From contig NXFV01001562.1 in the NCBI GenBank assembly GCA_002803225.1, positions 1 through 64,000 on the forward strand: a DNA stretch of 64,000 nucleotides, given 5' to 3'. Positions 1 to 57,529 of the stretch are shown here, in pieces (position 1 is the first letter of the stretch; each line of letters opens with the position of its first letter). The translations under genes were made by a program, and so were the position numbers. The notes beneath the pieces are model-generated. The model was not told where the DNA came from. It saw only the letters and a program-made list of their open reading frames with translations, and searched no databases. The stretch is from Gamarada debralockiae (taxonomy: Eukaryota; Ascomycota; Leotiomycetes; Helotiales; Hyphodiscaceae).

Positions 1-3000
1 ACTGCTGGGAGGAGCACTTTTCCTCGCTCGCTCTTTCCCTGGATTATATACAACATAGCCAAAGTATAAACAAAGCGTTCATCCCAACGAACGATTCTTC
101 TTCCTACTACACGAGGCACAACAACGTTACATTTTTGGTTACTTCTGAATCATTCAAGTGCCTTGAACACCCTGCGATATACATGTATATCAAGTCTCTC
201 CAGCACACCAAGACACCGGAGACGAGCCTCTCCTTGGGACTGTCAAAGCAAAGTCCACACCAGCGCCTACCAGTCTCAACATCTACTCATGTAAGATACT
301 CCATACTCCAGTACTTCATCCCCTCAAACAATCTGAACAAGACTGACGATTCTCGGATAGACCAGCGTATTACCCCAGCAACTCCGACTCAACTCCGCCG
401 TCGCTACGCATCAGATAGCCTTGAATATGACGGACACGAAGAAGAAACAAGAGCTTCCCAAGCCCGACATCCTCACAGCGAGTCCGCCAGTCTCTCCTTC
501 TTGGGGATGCAGATATCCCGTCGGTTCGGTCATCTTTGACGCTCTTACATCGAGCCCAGCCAGTCACCGAACGGCCACGAACGATGAGCAACAGGGCGCC
601 TCTCCAATTCTTTCACCCCGAGTGAACGATTGCAAGGACCCTGCTCCGCATCATCCTATCGACATCTTCGGAACCAACCCCGATAATCGTTCAGACATGA
701 TGAACGATTCAGCAGGTAGTCGTTCAGCTAAGATGAACGATTCACTAATGGCGCTCAAACCCCGAACCGACAAGCCGGTATCCCGGATAGTCCTGCGTTC
801 CGCGAAATCAATCGTTGAAACTAGGTCAACCATTGAAATAGAGTCGTCCAAAAAGCTCATATTCCCTATCCAATCGTCTCGAGCCAGTGGATTGCCTCAC
901 GAACGGATCATCCTCTTGAGTGTTGCACGCCCCTTCGACTTAAGTCAACGATTCAAGATGCGGAAGATTTGGATCTCGAGAATAGGATTCGTTCCGCACT
1001 CTATCGCCGACGCCGACCAATCGCTCTATCTGGTCCAACGATTCACAAGATGGTCAGATGGGATCCTATCATCATATCCTGCCGATCTCCGAAACCAATC
1101 GCTGAATCCATTTCAACAATTGAAAAGGAGGCGGCGGGCAATGCACATATCCCAATCCCCCATCTGAATCAGCGACTCGAAAAGACCTATCCGGATTGCA
1201 GGATTGCGTCAACACTATCTGTTCGTTGAAAAAGCATGACCGATTCATACTTCGGGAACTCCTACACGCCTGGATCCACGAGCACCCGCGTTCCAGACAC
1301 CCGCCACTCTAGGGGCTCATAATCGTTCAGAAAACTTGAACGATTGTAATACTTGGTCTACGCTACCAATTCTCAAGAGTCCACAAAGGGGGCCCCTGCC
1401 CCCGATCTGGATCCGAACCTCCAAGCCCATCAGCCTGCTCTGCGATCCGGCCGATCCGGTCCTGCCAATCGTTCACCCAGTCCCAACGATTCAAAAAAGA
1501 CCAGCAGATTCTGGTCCGGCCAACCTTATCCGCCCCCTCAAGCCAGCATATGCCCTCAATCGCTCATCGCGTTTCAACGATTGACGGAGACGGGTATGGC
1601 CGTGAGGCGAAGACACTTGATCCGGAGTGGGCGAAGTCTATACTGGATAGATTATAGCCAAGTATCCGTTGACTGGGAAGGTGAAGGCTGCAGCGCCAAC
1701 GGAGAGTAAGGGCCGGCTTGCAGCAGCCATACAGCAGCGTCTGGAGTACCTATTGATGCAGGAGAGAGAGAAAAAGGGCGCAGAGGCTAAGGCGGATATG
1801 AATCGTTCAGTTCAAATGGGAGATTGACGGATACATGATTTTGAATCGTTCATTAGAAATGAGCGATTGGGATAGCGGATTGCAAACATGATTAGAATCA
1901 CTGAAATAGAATCAGCGAATGAAATGAAGTCTTTTGACGTATCAATTAGGATATGATCCATACTCTTAAGAGTTCTAAATCCTAATCGTTCAAACAGATT
2001 GAACGATTTAGATATCTTACATTCCAAAATCCGGCTGTGGAAATTAAAATACTTGATGTCAATCGTTCCAGCAATTTCAGCTATCGAAACAAGGCCCTTC
2101 AAGGAGCTTTCCTCGAAACTATCGACTTCAATTGCTCATACAAATTGAAAGTTCAGACCTCGTCGTTTGCGAGAGGCTCTCTTTTCTAGTCACCTCCGTT
2201 TCGACGTTCAATGTACTATATCCCAATTAACACAGTACTGCATAATTTGGAAGATAAAATACCAATTATTCAACACGTTTCAGTGGCCAAATATGGACCC
2301 GTTGAAGCGTCTACTTCTCGTCCGGAAACCTTGGAGTCCAATCGTTCAATCTGAATGAGTGACTCAGATTCGCTGTCATCCGGAGATCATCCTTCTTTCA
2401 AAACTGTAATCGTCAGGGGGTGGAGAACGATTGACATCCCAGATTCCAATGACCGCGATATGCTGATTCTCGACGTTAATCCTCAAGGGGGCGCACCATC
2501 TAAGAGACATCACAGGAGATCTCCATTGACTGAGAAGACTACGGTAGCATTGAAAGAAGGATTCTGAGTTGCTGATTCTGAGAGATTGTGAGACGGACTT
2601 TGGGATCAGCAGATACATGAGTTTTTGGCCATGGGGATGCCGCATGACGCACGGGAAAGCAGCAGAATTCAATCGCTGGTTTGGAAACAGGGATTCATTG
2701 TTCCCTGAATAAGATTGATGGTTTACTGTTGGCATAGGATATCAACCAGTCCGCATATTTTGAGAGCTCAGGAGGAGAGACTTCACCCAGGTTCTCTGGA
2801 TGCAATACTCTCAGCTTTGATGGCTGGACTTGAAAAAGTGATTCAACGTTATTCACTCGAATGAGTTGAACAATTGGACTTCAAATCGTTCACATGGATT
2901 CAGTGATGGACATTTTACCAATTCTTCGATATTCATGAGACCTTGATGTTGATCCTCAAAGAGATTTGAAGCGGCCGCACGGAACCTTGCATCGAACAAA

Positions 3001-3243: not shown

Positions 3244-5350
3244 ATGGCGACTCCAACCGCACTCGCATCCAAACATGCGCCCTCCCAAGCGGTAGCCACA
3301 CCCCCCGTCTCAACGCCCTTCTCAGCGTCTCACGGGCATCCAGCCTTCTCACCCCACGGCCCGCGCTCTGTCGTGCCTTCCCCGCAACAAGTCAAGAAAT
3401 CGCCTGCGAATTCAAATACGTTATATGGGTATCCGAGTGGGAGTGGAGGTGGACATCCTTCGAATTCGAGTTTTGGGGCGGGGTATGACAGTCCTTCTGC
3501 GGCGATGGCTTTGGGTGGTGTGCCGAATTTGGCGGATCTGGGACTCGATGGCATGGGTGGGGGAGTGTCGGGGATGGGAGCGTTGGGGAGTTTGGGGAGG
3601 GGTGATGAGGATGAGCGGAAGAGAAGGCTGGGGGTTGTTATGGATATTTTGAAGGTATGTTCTCTGCGGTTGAGGGGTTGGGATTGCGTCGGGAGGGAGA
3701 AGTGCTAATGCTTGTGTACAGACGAACAAGGGACGCCTCAGCGAAGCAGGCATCGAGAGATTGGCTCGACGTGTAGGACTCGAGTGTTTATGGGAGGCAC
3801 ACATGGGCAGCGGAGGCAGCACGCGGACATTGATCATTGCAGGCTCTGCATTGGCACTCGACATCGACTTCTCGAATAACATAGTCAAGAAGGTTGCCCT
3901 CTCATTCCCCGATTCTGCGGAGACAGTTACTCGACATACAGAGAAAGCTGGGAATATGCTGCTTAGAGATCTGGAGTTCAAGCCTAATGAAAGCCCCTTA
4001 ACGAAGATGCTGGATCGTTTTGCGGCGAATTTGGAGAGATTGGCTGCGTTGGATAAACTGAGTGTTATACCGGGATTGAACTGTCATGAGGCGATTGCGG
4101 GCATTTATGAGAGTTTGGAAAGACTGCATAAATGGGAGGTGGAGAGATTGAAAGAGCAGGAGGATATGAATGGGAAACGAGACGAGTATGTTGAGCGGAC
4201 GGCGATGTGTATGAAGAGCGGCAAGCCGATTATGCATACGCGAGATAGACTCGGCATGAGCCTCGATTACTGGCAAGAGAAACGGCGAGTTGCGGCCAAA
4301 GGGGCGAAGCAAGAGCAGAAGACGTGGTCGTTGTTGGTGGAGTGCGCACCGATGCCTCCCATGGTCTATCCTCCACTACGGGTATCAGAGAAATGGATAT
4401 CTCCCGAGATACAAAAGGAGAATCCTCCAGCTGAAGACCTGTTCCTTGCGGCGGGAGGTCCGGTATTGGACTGGCTAGAGCCTGAAAATACCCTTCTCCC
4501 TAACACCGAAGCTCCCAAGGTCGACGCGATGGAAGGCATAGACCAGCCTTCGAACCAGAAGTTCCCTGAAGTCATATTCGTCGCCAAATTTGACCCTCCT
4601 TTGATCGTTCCCTATGGCATTGCAATGCAGATCTGCAGCTCTACGAATGCGCCGTTGGATATGTACCAACAAAGTACATTTGACGGACTCATGTTTCCTC
4701 CCAGCCCAGAAGACAAAATCGACACTGGCGAAGGACGAACAATCAAGCAACAGACCACCGTCCCAATCTTTTCCAAAAATGGCGAAAAGACAACTCAAAT
4801 CCACAAAAACACGCTGTTCATTGAGAAAATCGATTACGGACGAACCTTGACCGAACTCCCATTCTCCCATCCTAGACAATTGGTAGAAATGTTGCCTGCT
4901 CTCCGCCAATACGCATTCCTCTCAACCCTCCTCTCCAAATTGTTTCCTTCATCCAAAACCGCCCCCGCCGAATCCTCGCCAAGCACAGCTAAACTGGAGA
5001 AGAAGAACAAAAAGGACGAATTCGCCTCCTTCATGTCCCAATCCTCCTCATCCCTCCCCACCTCAACTCCCTTGAAAATCGACATCTCATTCACAGCCCA
5101 ACCCCTCCCACGTCTCCAAGTCGTCTTCCCATTCAAGAACCGAACCGCGAATGTCATCTTTGACATTAAGTTGAATGGGGTCGTGGAGGTTGTTTCGCAG
5201 AATGTGATTCCGGAGGTTGTGGATGGTGATGGTGATGGGATGGATGGGGGACAGGGAGATGGGGTGAAGGCAAGCGATTTGGGAACGATGCTGGAGATTA
5301 CGGAGGATTTGGGGATTTGGGTTGAGTTTGTTAGGAGGCGTTTGGGTTGA
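3244..5350 (+). CDS. MED1: Mediator complex subunit 1 (Med1)
   Basis: Two exons, 3244-3654 and 3722-5350, joined by a 67-bp intron with a GCTAATG branch site; predicted 679 aa. The first ~115 residues are low-complexity (Pro, Ser, Ala, then Gly) and probably disordered. The Med1 domain begins near residue 120 (DEDERKRRLGVVMDILK, then TNKGRLSEAGIERLARRVG) and covers most of the rest, as in fungal Med1. Med1 sits in the middle module of Mediator and links activators to RNA polymerase II in the nucleus. A Lys/Glu-rich stretch (residues ~400-430) and a Gly/Asp-rich loop near the C-terminus are probable insertions. The ATG was chosen because it is the first in frame and the frame stays open to the intron. 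It converges on the exportin gene. Confidence 0.85.
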
Positions 5351-9926: not shown

Positions 9927-10905
9927 CTTCGCGGTGTGAACTCCAAATATGTGACCTTTTCCTGCAGCGATAGATGTTTCCTACGCTTCGAGTGTGCTTT
10001 TGTGCAGCTTGCGCTGGTGGGAGAAGTCTTCTCGAGAGGACTTGTTCGTTGTTGAAGACGGCGTTGTCAGTTGTGGTTGTTGGCATTTCTTCCAGCCTCA
10101 ACTTTGACCTCAGATACGCTAGAGTTGCCCCACCAATTTCGCGCTAAACCCGTTTTGTGAACCGCGCAGAAACTCCGAGAGGGCGCGAGATGAAGATTTC
10201 ATTCACCTAGAGGGATTCACTCCCGAAAACCTCCAATTTCGCTATTCGTCGTCCCGTATATCCGGGATGATCGCCAAGTAGTCTCCTCCTAACAGGCTTG
10301 GATGTTGTTTTGTGGCTCATAGCCCTCCAGAAAGAGCTCTCTCGATATTACGCATTCACGTGTAATCTGCGACTGCGAGGCTGGCCAACTGTACCTCCCC
10401 ATCAGCATCGAATTTTCAAGGCAGAATTCCCTTTGGTGGTGAATTTTCTCGGTGTATATCTATGTGTATATCTACATCGGACTGTCCACTTCTAGGATTT
10501 GCCTCAGGGTCAAGACGAAGTCTGCTTTGGGATGCAAGATCCCAAAACGCTCGGAAGATGTGAACAATTCATATCCAAGGGAAGAGGTCTTTCGATAGAT
10601 CCTCAAATGAATCATTCCACTGCGGTGAGCGATATAGAGGCCGAGAGGATTCTCATTCCAATACAAGTTGATTTTTGGCAGGCAAATCGCTCACTGTATC
10701 CGAGTGATTACTTCATGGGATCTTGTGGAGCAATTAATGTGATGCTTCAGGCGAAGAGAAGAACAGATATATTTCATACAATCTCCCCCAAAGAACCCTC
10801 AAGTTCCAATATGTACAAGAATTCCCCTTATAATGCTCTTCCCGTCCTGTCACCGAGCAAGCGCCATCTAGACCAATACATCCCACCAACTCTCCTCTCA
10901 ATCAC
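9927..10905. other. CRM1 upstream region
   Basis: Promoter and 5' UTR of exportin-1 (transcribed leftwards) and the 3' flank of the next minus-strand gene. An open frame on + (10499-11188) overlaps the Ser-rich gene in antisense; its acidic end is the complement of Ser codons, so I reject it. Nothing else is visible. Confidence 0.5.
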
Positions 10906-11819: not shown

Positions 11820-12815
11820 ATGGCTGCTGATGATCGTCATACTTCTGTGTTCAGGGAGAACGGAAGCACCATTGCCCCATCCGTTTCAGACGTTACAGCA
11901 ACACCCAGCACGGCGGAAGTTACGGCTTAAATAGGTTTGAAGTGGCAACCTTTGTACGTTCACATTATCAAGTTGACTTGGGATGGTATACTGACATCCA
12001 CAGTCACAATCCAGCCTATTCGCGAGGAAGTCAACCGCGTAATGTGCCACTACCTCGCCTTCACCTCCCCCCGCGAACTCAGCCTCTCCCACAAAGACCG
12101 CGCCCAATGCCTGCACGCCCTCTAACACACCACTTAGCCCTGAAGCCCGCCATCACAATCGCTGAAGCCGCTCTCCGCGGTCAATCCCACCCGAACTTCA
12201 TTAGCTGGTTCATTTGCAACTGCAACAAACCCGCGTCTTCTTTGTCCGCACCATGGGAGTCAGCCACATCGGTTTCGGATTCATCATCGCTGTGCTCCTC
12301 ACTCTTTCGACCGCAAGTGGCTGGTGGAGAATATTCGATACCCCGGTTTGGTTCATTGGTTTCTCTAGTATGGTCGCTGCATGTAAAGGCTTCTGTGTGA
12401 TCTTGCACCACACTTATGCGAGAAATCTTCGACCTTGGGAACAAGACATCGATTCCGAGATGGGTGATTCAAGACGGAATTTATTCTCCAGCACGGCACA
12501 ACGGGGTGTCAAATTAGCATCCCGAACTGGACATTACGATGATCTGAAATTAGGAGACGACGCATCGAGCTTCCGACCTACCAGCTTTCAGACCTTTGGC
12601 GCAAGAACAGCTTCAATGATGCGCAGTAGGTTGGGAAGTATGAGAAGAAGCCTTTGAGTAAGGTGTTTGAGAAGAATTTTTGGACGCAGGATGAGACCTT
12701 CGGGATTCTGCAAGATCTGATTGTGCTTGGTGCTAATTTTGGGATGTCATTCTTACCGTTGTTTGTACTGCTGTTTTTGTTGCGATTCCTAAGGGGAGTC
12801 ATTATTGAGGGGATG
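11820..12815 (+). pseudogene. Decayed RGS-domain membrane protein gene (copy A)
   Basis: Pieces of a fungal regulator-of-G-protein-signalling protein can be read in changing frames. In order: a linker (DDRHTSVFRENGSTIAPS); an intron at about 11957-12002; the C-terminal RGS half (PIREEVNRVMCHYLAFTSPR, then AITIAEAALRGQSHPNF); a membrane region with VFFVRTMGVSHIGFGFIIAV and HTYARNLRPWE; and a tail with VFEKNFWTQDETFGILQD. Lesions: one base lost before LNRFE near 11929; CAA changed to TAA near 12124; a 7-base deletion near 12138 relative to copy B; CCCC reduced to CCC near 12230; and another frame break near 12650. The first RGS half is absent here but a fragment like it lies at 22.2-22.5 kb. 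Intact homologues are expected to attenuate G-alpha signalling. A second, more partial copy lies at 27848-28242. Confidence 0.8.
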
Positions 12816-17492: not shown

Positions 17493-18838
17493 GATTTGTT
17501 TGACATGTGTGGGTGATGGAAGTGGAGTTTGGTCAGTTTATGGGAGGTGTGATGAATGGTGTGGAATAGCATTTACTCGAGCTTAATGAGAATTTCCCAA
17601 TAAATGCCTCTGTGTGACAGTTCAGCTCGCTTAGAAAAGGGGTCACTGGGCGCACGAGCCTTGGCAACACGCAACGAAATCAAGTCGCCTGTGCCTCCGA
17701 ATTGAATCCATAAACCCATAACTCCATGACCGCACACTAGCGACAATTCCATTTCTGCAAGAATCCACCGTCGCAATCTGTAACTACCTTGCTATTCCCC
17801 ACTTCCAAATCACTTCTCAGACTTGACAGACACTACTTGCCTCCAGTCCTATACGACGAGACCTCGGGGCCGGTGGTGAGTATCGAGACACAGGCATAAT
17901 TCCTGCTGAAGCAATGTATCTCGCCTCAACACGCTCTCTGGTGATATATCCTGCTCGTTCTGGGGTAACATCGCTTCGATTTGAAGCCACTCTCGCAGCT
18001 CGCGTGCTTCGGATGTTCCGTAACCAGAGAGCTTCCTTCTCCCTACTCTGTTCACTCGGCCCAGCTTTCCACCAGCTCCAGACTATCAACTTGTCGACTT
18101 CTTCCTCGCGGATTATTTCCATTTCAGTAAGTAACATACTTTCCAAATGAAATGATCTTGGGAAACTTTATTTACTCACACCTTTTGAGCAATTGAAATC
18201 CTACGAGCCAGGTCCTCCAAAGCTGCCAATCCTCAATCATCCTGAAGAGTTGAATGATTCAAAGTCTCTTAGAGCAGGTTGAAAACAGGTGCTTAATCGA
18301 GTACAGCGTATAACAAGTGAGCCGCTGACTCTATTTGAGAACTTTCTCAACATCTCGATACCTTAACGAGAAAACCAAGTGCTTGATAGCGCTCGTCTCA
18401 CCGCATGGGCAAGCGTGCACGTGCCCCGCGATCTCGGAGCAAATTCGGGAGTGGATGAGTCTTTCACACGAAAATTTGATGACAAGTTGATCCACCGGAC
18501 ACAAAACTACAATTTCGGGCATCTTTTAGACAAATTTGGGAAGTCTATCCCTTTCTCCCCAAAAATTCACAAGTAAACACAAAAGATCTCCGTTGCGTTG
18601 TCCAATCGGACGACAGCGGGAGCAAAACTACGTAACCCTGGCTCTGCCTTTTACTTCTCGGGTCTACCCCGCCATCGCCATCAACGTGGCTCCCCACGCA
18701 AGACTTTCGGTCATATCCAGACATTTGGACCCAAGACAACCACTTCCTCTCAATACTCCATATTCCACAGATCGATTGTTAAGCCTCGAATCTCTAAAAC
18801 CGCAGACAAGACGATTCAGCTCGAGCTCGGAGAAACTC
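17493..18838. other. Intergenic, upstream of aminotransferase
   Basis: 3' flank of the catalase and promoter of the aminotransferase. A minus-strand frame at 17817-18146 has no recognisable domain and was not called. From 18536 an in-frame + extension of the aminotransferase is open (see that gene). Confidence 0.45.
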
Positions 18839-24523: not shown

Positions 24524-25609
24524 CTAGCTAACTAGTGTGAGGAGCTTAACAATGGCATCATGCCTGTTCTCAACGGCCCACGATAGTGGTGTCTGACCAA
24601 ATTTGTCCTTCGAGTTAGTATTAGCGCCCGCCTTGAGCAGCAGCTCGACTATAGCCTGGTGCCCGTTCTCGGCCGCCCTCGATAGTGGTGTCTGACCAAA
24701 TTCGTCCTTTGAATCCATGTCAGCGCCTGCCTTGAGCAGCAGTTCGACGAAAGCATGGTGCCCATCCTTAGCCGCCACTAATAGCGGTGTCTCATCATTA
24801 TTGTCCTTTGAGTCCGTGTCAGCGCCCGCCTTGACTAGCAGTTCGACAACAGCCTGGTGCCCATTCTTAGCCGCCCACCATAGCGGTGTCTGACCAAATT
24901 CGTCCTTTGAGTCCGTGTCAGCGCCCGCCTTGAACAGCAGCTCCACTATAGCCTGGTGCCCGTTCTCAGCCGCCCTCGATAGTGGTGTCTGACCTAATCC
25001 GTCCTTTGAGTCCGTGTCAGCGCCCGCCTTAAGCAGCAGCTCGACTATAGCCTGGTGTCCGTTCTTGGCCGCCCACCATAGCGGCGTCTGGCCAGAGTTA
25101 TCCCCAATATCGGGTTCAATGTCGCTTCGGGTTAAGAGCATCTTAACTGCAGCCTCTTGCCCGCACTCTGATGCATGCGATAGCAGCGTCCGTCCATTAC
25201 CATCTTTCAAGTGGCCCCGGACATCTTCTCGGGCCAAAAACATATTAATTACCGCCTCATGCCCGTTCCTTGCAGCGTGTGACAGTGGTGTCTGTCCCAT
25301 ACTATCCCTTGAGTGTGGCTCGACATCGTTTCGAGCCAGTAACAACCACACCACCTCATCATGTCCCTCCCTTGCCGCGTGCGACAGCGGCGTCCATCCA
25401 TCATTATCTTTTGAGTCGGCCTTAACATTGCGTCGGGTGAGCAGCAACCATACTACCTTCGCGTGCCCTCCGCCTGCCGCGTGCGATAACGGCGTCCGTC
25501 CCTGTTTATCTTTCGAGTCGGCCTGGATGTTCCCTCGGGCCAGTATCGACCGTACCTCTTCCACAAGCCCACCCCCTGCTGCGTGCGATAGCGCCGTCCG
25601 TCCATCTCC
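24524..25609 (-). repeat. Ankyrin-coding tandem repeats (102-bp and 99-bp units)
   Basis: Units on the minus strand, in protein order: five of 102 bp (25508-25609, 25406-25507, 25304-25405, 25202-25303, 25100-25201), then 99-bp units at 25001-25099, 24902-25000, 24803-24901, 24704-24802 and 24605-24703, and a partial last one. The 99-bp group shares the core NGHQAIVELLLKAGADTDSKD with few changes, while the 102-bp group is much more diverged. The boundary between the two groups is sharp. Confidence 0.85.
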
Positions 25610-27847: not shown

Positions 27848-28242
27848 GCCAGCCACAGCGATTAATTCCGCTTGTGGCTGACTCCCATGGTGCAGACAAA
27901 GAAGACGCGGGGTTTGTTGCCGTTGTGTTGCGAGGTCATAATTGTAGAATGTGAAAGCAGCTTGACATTTAGAGAGTAGTGATCCTAGGGCTATATATAC
28001 AGCGTAGTGACTCATACCCTAGGCAACAGTGCCAAGTGGGTTAGGACTCAGGTGTCACGTTCCAACACGTTGCAAATGGACCAACGAATGAAGTTGGGGT
28101 GGGATTGACAGCGGAGAGCGACTTCAGCGATTGTGATGGCGGGCTTCAGGGCGAAGGGCTGAGTGGTGTGTTGGAGGGCGTGCCGGCATTGGGCGCGGCC
28201 TTTGTGGGAGAGGTTGAGTTCGCGGGGGGAGGTGAAGGCGAG
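27848..28242 (-). pseudogene. RGS-protein gene fragment (copy B), split by an insertion
   Basis: 28069-28242 on the minus strand matches 12054-12220 on the plus strand with about 11 mismatches and a 7-base length difference (roughly 93% identical over the aligned bases, counted by eye). It reads LAFTSPRELNLSHKGRAQ, then ALKPAITIAEVALRCQ and SHPNFIRWSICN with no stop. Homology resumes at 27848-27931 (NKPRVFFVCTMGVSH) after a 137-bp insertion. Copy B keeps CAA where copy A has the stop TAA, and CCCC where A has CCC. It is the downstream half of the gene only; a 5'-half fragment lies 5.4 kb away on the same strand. Confidence 0.75.
27932..28068. mobile_element. 137-bp insertion in RGS copy B, MITE-like
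   Basis: It interrupts the RGS homology exactly between codons for ICN and NKP. A GTTG precedes it and is repeated just after it, which could be a target duplication. The ends are weakly inverted (TGTTG and CAACA). Inside is a CCTAGGG/CCCTAGG inverted pair, and a 15-base string shared with 22093-22107. Too short to code; probably a non-autonomous element or fragment. Confidence 0.45.
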
Positions 28243-56938: not shown

Positions 56939-56956
56939 ACCATCTGCTCAATTGTT

Positions 56957-57240
56957 CCCCATCCCAGTGGCGATAGAGCTACCTGGCTTTGGAAGCATCA
57001 CGAATAGCGTCGTGGCAAACACATCAGTCCACCTCCTTTTAGTCATTCAATGCCACGTTGTGTGCTTGTGACTAGAAATGTCACTGACAGCTTCTAGTCC
57101 CCATCCCAGTGGCGATAGAGCTACCTGGCTTCGGAAGCATCACGAATAGCGTCGTGGCAAACACATCAGTCCACCTCCTTTTAGTCATTCAATGCCACGT
57201 TGTCTGCTTGTGACTAGAAATGTCACTGACAGCTTCTAGT
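56957..57240. repeat. 142-bp perfect-period tandem duplication
   Basis: 56957-57098 and 57099-57240 are the same sequence except for two substitutions (T/C near 56993/57135; G/C near 57062/57204). It begins 18 bases after the stop codon of the sugar transporter, so both copies may lie in its 3' UTR. A recent slippage or unequal-exchange event. Confidence 0.9.
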
Positions 57241-57529
57241 ACCCAACGCCTCAGCTTAGGCTGTAGTTCTGCTCCCCGATCTGCGAGACTCTAAAGAGTA
57301 AGGCGACTCATAGCAGTGCTATTGTTGGGGACGGCAGTGTGGGTGCCTGGACTTCGAGCAGTGTGTGGAGGCTGCTGGACGAGGTTGACACGAGGTGAAG
57401 TCATGCACGCAGCTGAGAGAGGAGTATTCGGGGATGCCAAAACGCCATTATCAAGTGCTAAATAAGATGTACAGGAAGTCATGAGACCTCCAGCTCAGCC
57501 CTCTTCCATGTAGGAATAGAAAGTTAATT
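57241..57529. other. Intergenic
   Basis: No supported feature. Confidence 0.35.

Follow-up and report, generated by a model that had tools for sequence, protein, structure and literature searches.

Clustered palindromic sites in the nuclear genome of a Helotiales fungus: candidate recognition sites for a symmetric dimeric protein

Introduction

Homotypic transcription-factor clusters consist of many degenerate copies of one motif gathered in a short region without shared flanks. Bacterial parS and operator arrays are clustered palindromic sites for dimeric proteins, and bacterial REP elements are short dispersed palindromes, mostly outside genes, that are associated with RAYT transposases. 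According to the excerpt of a published account (PMC10246852), CTCF occurs in metazoans only, and the characterisation of fungal boundary elements is incomplete.

The sites described here, found as an array in a 64,000-nt stretch of DNA (the window), resemble homotypic clusters in comprising many degenerate copies that are conserved by position and lack shared flanks, but they are not promoter-centred, occupying introns, exons and the sequence beyond stop codons, and they have a phased, dimeric motif of ∼22 bits in more than 1000 copies. With CTCF-type boundary sites they share a long genome-wide motif that is intergenic and intronic, single and clustered; here, however, the motif is symmetric and fungal, with a predicted binder. 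The likeness to parS and operator arrays lies in the clustering of palindromic (here putative) dimer sites, whereas the present ones lie in a eukaryotic nucleus and number more than 1000 degenerate copies. REP elements are likewise short, dispersed and mostly outside genes, but clear covariation, a Y1 transposase match and signs of copy ancestry within arrays are absent here. Fungal introner-like elements, as far as the available extracts of that literature describe them, also place repeated sequence inside introns, whereas here a splice-signal scan makes intronic sites a minority and similarity does not extend beyond the site. Mitochondrial palindromic elements of fungi and algae (e.g., PMC2670323, Volvox, in extract) are abundant and short as well, but ours are in nuclear DNA with nuclear genes and their arms do not clearly co-vary. 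A MITE has terminal inverted repeats, internal sequence and a target-site duplication; the unit here is only 31–35 bp.

The partial texts that we consulted on fungal inverted repeats, nuclear palindromes, homotypic clusters, insulators, introners, Leotiomycetes and Hyphodiscus do not describe the motif, and the two 9-mers, searched as letters, returned only apparently unrelated papers among those listed, as far as their excerpts go. Clustered dimer sites are a known kind; scale, phasing, location and predicted binder set the present case apart.

Materials and Methods

Pattern counts across the 54.3-Mb genome (1112 contigs) are lower bounds and were controlled with the reversed pattern. Loci L002, L003, L005–L024 and L026–L035 were picked around perfect sites, so that site density in them is biased; L001 is nested in L002 and L004 in L005. 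The symmetrised weight matrix was built from the window, L002 and L005–L024 (21 loci), 256 kb in all. Covariation was tested on the same set with the tested position pair removed from the site-selection score. L003 is absent from the site lists, compensatory counts, locus-versus-locus matches, and matrix and covariation tests, and is included in later analyses; L025 (rDNA) was dropped from the weight-matrix analysis onward. Pfam was searched with 50 ORFs (one from the window array) hand-picked as nearby and likely coding, 26 of which had a family at E ≤ 1e-3; in 4 of the 26 (L022 second exon, L024, L032 and L007:6132-6560) the best match was under the curated cut-off.

Results

The contig starts at window base 1, and the array occupies its first 3 kb (Table 1). 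Because the gene for Mediator subunit 1 (Med1) lies on the same contig and its best named relative comes from Hyphodiscus hymeniophilus (80% identity), the DNA can be assigned to the nucleus of a Helotiales fungus. An earlier note on the window had described at least 15 stronger and six weaker inverted repeats with a 7-bp gap. Our count for positions 1–3000 is 16 gap-7 sites with 14–18 of 18 arm bases and a further six with 12–13, including all three sites that the note had called perfect (685, 1321 and 1984). An element is indeed present at position 73, where the note began the array, but in a gap-6 form. In 1000 dinucleotide shuffles of positions 1–3000, sites matching 14 or more of the 18 arm bases averaged 0.024, with a maximum of 1, against the 16 observed. 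The other 61 kb of the window hold 5 such sites versus 0.35 expected (60 shuffles), so the pattern is not equally dense elsewhere. With the full weight matrix, the site at 2408 falls below 14 bits, and those at 2264 and 2671 enter as weak sites.

Table 1. Palindromic sites and neighbouring genes, in window coordinates or by locus
Feature	Location	Strand	Remark
Array of palindromic sites	73..2908	.	upstream of Mediator subunit 1 gene
Gap-6 form	73..96	.	2 mismatches
Weak site	148..172	.	13/18
Site	607..631	.	16/18
Perfect site	685..709	.	18/18
Site	718..742	.	17/18
Site	810..834	.	15/18
Weak site	929..953	.	12/18
Site	1019..1043	.	14/18
Site	1097..1121	.	14/18, 29 bits with flanks
Site	1221..1245	.	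14/18
Perfect site	1321..1345	.	18/18
Site	1467..1491	.	16/18
Site	1558..1582	.	16/18
Site	1801..1825	.	15/18
Site	1844..1868	.	17/18
Site	1896..1920	.	12/18, 24 bits with flanks
Perfect site	1984..2008	.	18/18
Weak site	2061..2085	.	13/18
Weak site	2130..2154	.	13/18
Weak site	2264..2288	.	weight matrix only, 15 bits
Site	2340..2364	.	15/18
Site	2408..2432	.	14/18, <14 bits by weight matrix
Weak site	2671..2695	.	weight matrix only, 17 bits
Site	2851..2875	.	13/18, 21 bits with flanks
Site	2884..2908	.	14/18
Mediator of RNA polymerase II subunit 1	3244..5350	+	neighbouring gene, two exons read
Small cluster	10545..10709	.	three 14/18 sites at 10545, 10610, 10685
Site pair	18170..18259	.	18170 (12/18) and 18235 (14/18), about 25 bits each
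MJ1316 gene	L018		site 3 bp past open frame
Miro GTPase	L021		site 54 bp past open frame
FAA hydrolase	L012		site 142 bp past open frame
RING/zf-UBP	L023		site 151 bp past open frame
Vps41	L027		site 166 bp past open frame
Velvet	L008		site 267 bp past open frame
M18 peptidase	L011		site 318 bp past open frame
HET	L014		site 338 bp past open frame
LETM1	L019		site 388 bp past open frame

The possibility that the repeats follow from codon repeats, which the earlier note had raised against its own proposal, is not borne out as tested: a homologue search with the ORF at 421–1164 found nothing at E ≤ 1e-3, Pfam gave no match up to E = 1 for six array ORFs, and the array was rejected as a coding region on both searches. 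Positions 1660–1827 inside the array resemble protein by eye, without a family match, and a fast-evolving gene may overlap the array around there. The window has no match to Rfam at gathering scores and a tRNA scan of it found none. Viral contigs held no exact match of the perfect site, and among prokaryotic genome contigs no stray fungal DNA adjoining Med1 was confirmed.

Searched genome-wide, as the earlier note had proposed, the gap-7 pattern occurs at at least 1667 places with up to three mismatches (31 in the reversed control) and at least 697 with up to two (1 in the control); at least 40 sites have perfect arms. By comparison, gap 6 gave at least 112 places (control 25), gap 8 at least 110 (control 21) and arms in direct orientation at least 84 (control 36), although perfect arms also occur at gap 6 (at least three sites) and gap 8 (at least two). 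Inverted half-sites at one fixed spacing, as expected of dimer sites, thus greatly exceed the other arrangements. Further arrays include those of L007 (16 sites of at least 13/18), L016 (18 of at least 13/18) and L018 (11 of at least 13/18, between 4802 and 6884); sites also occur singly or in small groups. An association with contig ends (assembly gaps), judged by eye from lists, was not convincing. The hexamer CCGGAT, noticed post hoc among 7-mers, is ∼4 times denser in the arrays of the window, L002, L007, L008, L009, L016, L018 and L031 (19 in 13.3 kb) than in the rest of the sequence analysed (92 in 272 kb), and may be a further motif of this system.

The motif carries about 22 bits, and 155 places in the 256 kb score at least 14 bits versus 3 in Markov sequence of equal length. 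Its consensus is T-N-T-S-AATCGYTSA-A-W-Y-N-R-W-T-TSARCGATT-S-A-N-A, in which C or G stands beside each arm and T at positions −1 and −3, with their mirror images. The 25-bp unit of the earlier note is therefore too short, since the flanks are partly conserved too and the palindrome reaches 31–35 bp. Its account of the gap stands as regards length, 7 bp being strongly preferred, but not as regards sequence, which is not wholly unconserved and has a weak inner symmetry (A-A/T-T/C-N-R-A/T-T).

The two halves of the palindrome vary independently or nearly so. At position 0, beside the arm, the left–right combinations of C and G number 25/21/21/18 (odds ratio 1.02), and at arm position 8 they number 80/25/18/6 (odds ratio 1.07). 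Of 19 positions, only position 5 matched across the axis more often than expected at p < 0.05 (85 vs. 74.7, p 0.016), with two flank positions at p 0.054. Compensatory pairs numbered 27 versus 21.5 expected over the nine arm pairs of sites of at least 13/18, a count in which the tested positions were not removed from selection. Because the halves are nearly independent, conservation does not act on a base-paired hairpin, and the stem is not kept by compensatory changes in the way expected of REP/RAYT elements. This slight compensatory excess aside, half-sites that vary independently and tolerate changes according to position are what dimer sites would be expected to have. RNA folding is good for three perfect sites, with free energies between −9.6 and −12.5 kcal/mol (z between −3.0 and −5.6), and weak for two imperfect members of their array, at −4.1 kcal/mol (z −3.2) and −3.5 kcal/mol (z −2.2).

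The substitutions themselves depend on position. The right arm is perfect at 280 strand-wise places, and 68 of the 100 places listed are imperfect at left positions 5–8. Among the listed left arms with a single mismatch (n = 38), T6 is changed 13 times, always to C, and T7 never (p 2.4e-4), while G5 is changed in 17 (to T in 8, A in 5, C in 4) and C8 in 8 (to G in 4, T in 3, A in 1). Across all 68 listed imperfect arms, T6 is changed 36 times and T7 12 times. Replacement of C8 by G is three times as frequent as by T in the matrix, but the two number only 13 and 8 in the genome-wide list. Since similar mutability is expected of T6 and T7, the pattern reflects tolerance by position rather than the mutation spectrum.

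Perfect-arm sites have better flanks and spacers than the remaining sites, and pairwise similarity between sites is overdispersed (z 3.7 to 7.5). These two observations speak against a pure binding-site reading and would also be expected of decaying copies derived from one master, but unequal site strength or age fits them too. Between sites of one array, similarity is no higher than across arrays (z −1.8 to 0.6). In BLAST comparisons between loci, matches that cover sites are ∼22–40 bp long with no further shared flank, and two longer matches (114 and 53 bp) do not touch sites, both among the 60 of 72 matches listed. Tandem duplication as a source of an array was seen in L020 only. At L020:4884-5058 three sites lie in a 75-bp tandem duplication with copies about 83% identical, in which the palindromes remain strong while the flanks diverge.

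Spacings between adjacent sites cluster at 32–33, 41–45, 52–57, 64–70 and 74–79 bp, with 36, 61 and 82 bp once each between clusters. With the tandem locus L020 excluded, none of 75 spacings falls between 25 and 31 bp, and the best period is 11.5–11.7 bp when compared with jittered spacings (p < 0.001 at score thresholds 12 and 14; 0.008, 0.024 and 0.037 at thresholds 16, 18 and 20). All site pairs up to 200 bp apart give a period of 11.2 (p 0.007). One weak pair, in L021, overlaps at 18 bp. The period of B-DNA is 10.5, and that observed is nearer 11–11.5. We read this spacing as steric exclusion by a ∼32-bp footprint combined with roughly same-face binding by a putative protein.

For strong sites (at least 30 bits), the nearest coding end is a 3′ end in 19 of the 25 with a coding end within 1 kb, versus an expected fraction of 0.52 for random positions (p 0.013; 0.016–0.056 under 11 other settings), a modest excess, and seven further strong sites have no coding end within 1 kb. 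Weaker sites (16–25 bits) have no significant 3′ bias (p 0.09–0.54). ORFs of at least 150 codons contain 35 of 155 sites, although they cover 45% of the sequence. Sites 3 to 433 bp past a Pfam-supported frame occur in L003, L008, L011–L014, L018, L019, L021–L023, L027 and L032 (examples in Table 1), and the sites so placed in L013 and L019 lie 300–360 bp upstream of the next likely coding frame as well. The sites are not mainly upstream of start codons, as those of promoter-type clusters would be, although the window array itself is upstream of Med1 and the array of L007 upstream of an SNF2 gene. The neighbouring gene families have no evident common function.

Some sites lie within genes. In the MJ1316 gene of L018, three introns of 54, 51 and 77 nt contain sites; their excision gives an open frame of 547 aa, and the homologue P0121 continues through the third junction. 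Since 51 nt cannot hold both a pre-existing intron and an insertion, these sites at least originated in place. The Sec39 gene of L016 has introns of ∼305 and 130 nt (by eye) with five and two sites, respectively; Sec39 domain matches flank the first and are also found before the second. A splice-signal scan for introns of up to 160 nt with strict signals, which had no control and missed two introns found by eye, placed a possible intron around 15 of 177 sites. In several introns of L018 and L016, the right arm abuts a branch-point-like sequence (GATT-ACTAAC, GATT-GCTAAC).

The exons of the L018 gene contain four sites of 14–16/18, at 5316, 5382, 5997 and 6733. Two of them are in the linker before the MJ1316 domain, and one of these reads NHSTQENDS. 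At the corresponding place, P0121, a JGI metagenome protein 54% identical to the L018 protein in its best local match, has NRSQQENDS, NRSKQENDY, NRSKQEKDS and NHSTEINDS. The sequence AATCGTTCA-N7-AGAACGATT, one base off consensus, can encode such peptides in that frame, and we infer that the DNA encoding P0121 would carry the palindrome. At 39 aa, the L018 linker nearly equals in length the 42-aa linker of P0122, a homologue without sites (both counted by eye), which argues that the L018 exonic sites arose in place. The linker of P0121 is much longer than those of its homologues, and this argues for insertion or expansion there. The motif suggests DNA-level selection that reaches introns and, apparently, a protein linker, where conflict between DNA-site and coding constraint could be studied.

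Discussion

With moderate confidence, we favour the explanation that the repeats are recognition sites on double-stranded DNA for a predicted symmetric dimeric protein with a chromosome-wide role. Of the three options offered in the earlier note, namely a symmetric dimeric protein, hairpin-forming repeats and a nuclear REP analogue, the dimeric protein is the best supported, on the grounds of half-site independence, positional tolerance, the 7-bp gap and phased spacing. We infer that binding is dimeric and cooperative. Each subunit would read one half-site, TSAATCGYTSA, and with the half-sites inverted and their centres 16 bp apart, one site would cover 31–33 bp. Neighbouring sites would face the same side of the helix (period about 11 bp) and keep at least 32 bp apart, except for the one weak overlapping pair, so that dimers could sit side by side and cooperate in arrays. 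The protein would act on chromosomes generally, as a boundary, loop anchor or gene-end roadblock; a general chromosomal role is preferred to that of a promoter regulator because sites are found in intergenic DNA, just downstream of stop codons, inside introns and within some exons. An architectural role of this kind is a guess. Its most specific form, a lineage-specific CTCF- or ParB-like protein that marks gene ends and domain borders via thousands of symmetric, phased sites, selected strongly enough to invade introns and disordered parts of exons, seems to us conceivable but doubtful. Were the sites architectural, a long symmetric motif in phased, genome-wide arrays beyond promoters would be a candidate fungal boundary system.

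Alternatively, the palindrome could be a small element that moves or amplifies, equivalent in the nucleus to bacterial REP or mitochondrial hairpin elements, and that was copied and then decayed. Well over a thousand dispersed copies, their relative scarcity in open frames, the better flanks and spacers that accompany perfect arms, gap-6 and gap-8 forms each at about 5–7% of gap-7 forms, and the extended P0121 linker with its four site-like peptides all fit such an element. Yet left and right halves are not linked, the listed matches between loci stop at site edges, arrays other than that of L020 do not consist of related copies, and the unequal changes at T6 and T7 are not mutational in pattern. 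The introns of 51 and 54 nt could not accommodate an older intron together with an insertion, and the L018 linker with two sites is about as long as the site-free one. The Y1 transposase family PF01797 also has no match in the genome, in a search that matches 5 of 14 control genomes. We consider mobility unlikely, and the REP analogue of the earlier note is not supported either, given the missing PF01797 match, listed matches ending at the site and same-array sites no more alike than others. Introner-like elements, in which introns are born from a multiplying element containing the palindrome, would account for several short introns in L018 and L016 made up mostly of one or two sites, but a possible intron surrounds few sites in the strict, uncontrolled scan, similarity in the listed matches between loci ends with the site rather than extending over whole introns, and large arrays are outside introns, all of which makes this origin highly improbable.

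An ordinary transcription-factor regulon with homotypic clusters would make the window array the upstream regulatory region of Med1, and the array does end 335 bp before the Med1 start codon; the SNF2 array and the sites of L013 and L019 that also precede a likely coding frame would suit it equally. It is nevertheless unlikely too, a slightly less credible account than mobility, as strong sites follow stop codons more often than they precede start codons, sites also occupy introns and exons, and the neighbouring families share no evident function. Hairpins acting at the RNA level in transcripts or introns, with a 9-bp stem and a 7-nt loop, could draw on the good folding of the three perfect sites, the many sites that are intronic or past stop codons and the slight excess of compensatory pairs. 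Mismatched halves at the C/G-variable positions are, however, as frequent as chance, folding is weak for two imperfect sites from the array that holds the three, and long intergenic arrays are also full of sites, so that we give RNA hairpins very little credence. The hairpin-forming repeats of the earlier note fare no better, their arms lacking covariation beyond that slight excess.

Additional Observations

The small-subunit rRNA gene at L025:100-600 is apparently interrupted in its 3′ end (by eye) by an insertion of ∼400 bp ahead of the last conserved stretch, perhaps a group I intron. Within the window, 12054-12268 and 27873-28242 are copies of a ∼220-bp dispersed repeat, inverted relative to each other and matching in two pieces of 90–94% identity. 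Tandem repeats at 24561-25094 and 25331-25606 have periods of 99 and 102 bp, the length of 33–34-residue protein repeats such as ankyrin. Positions 56956-57245 comprise two nearly identical 142-bp tandem copies (97% matches).
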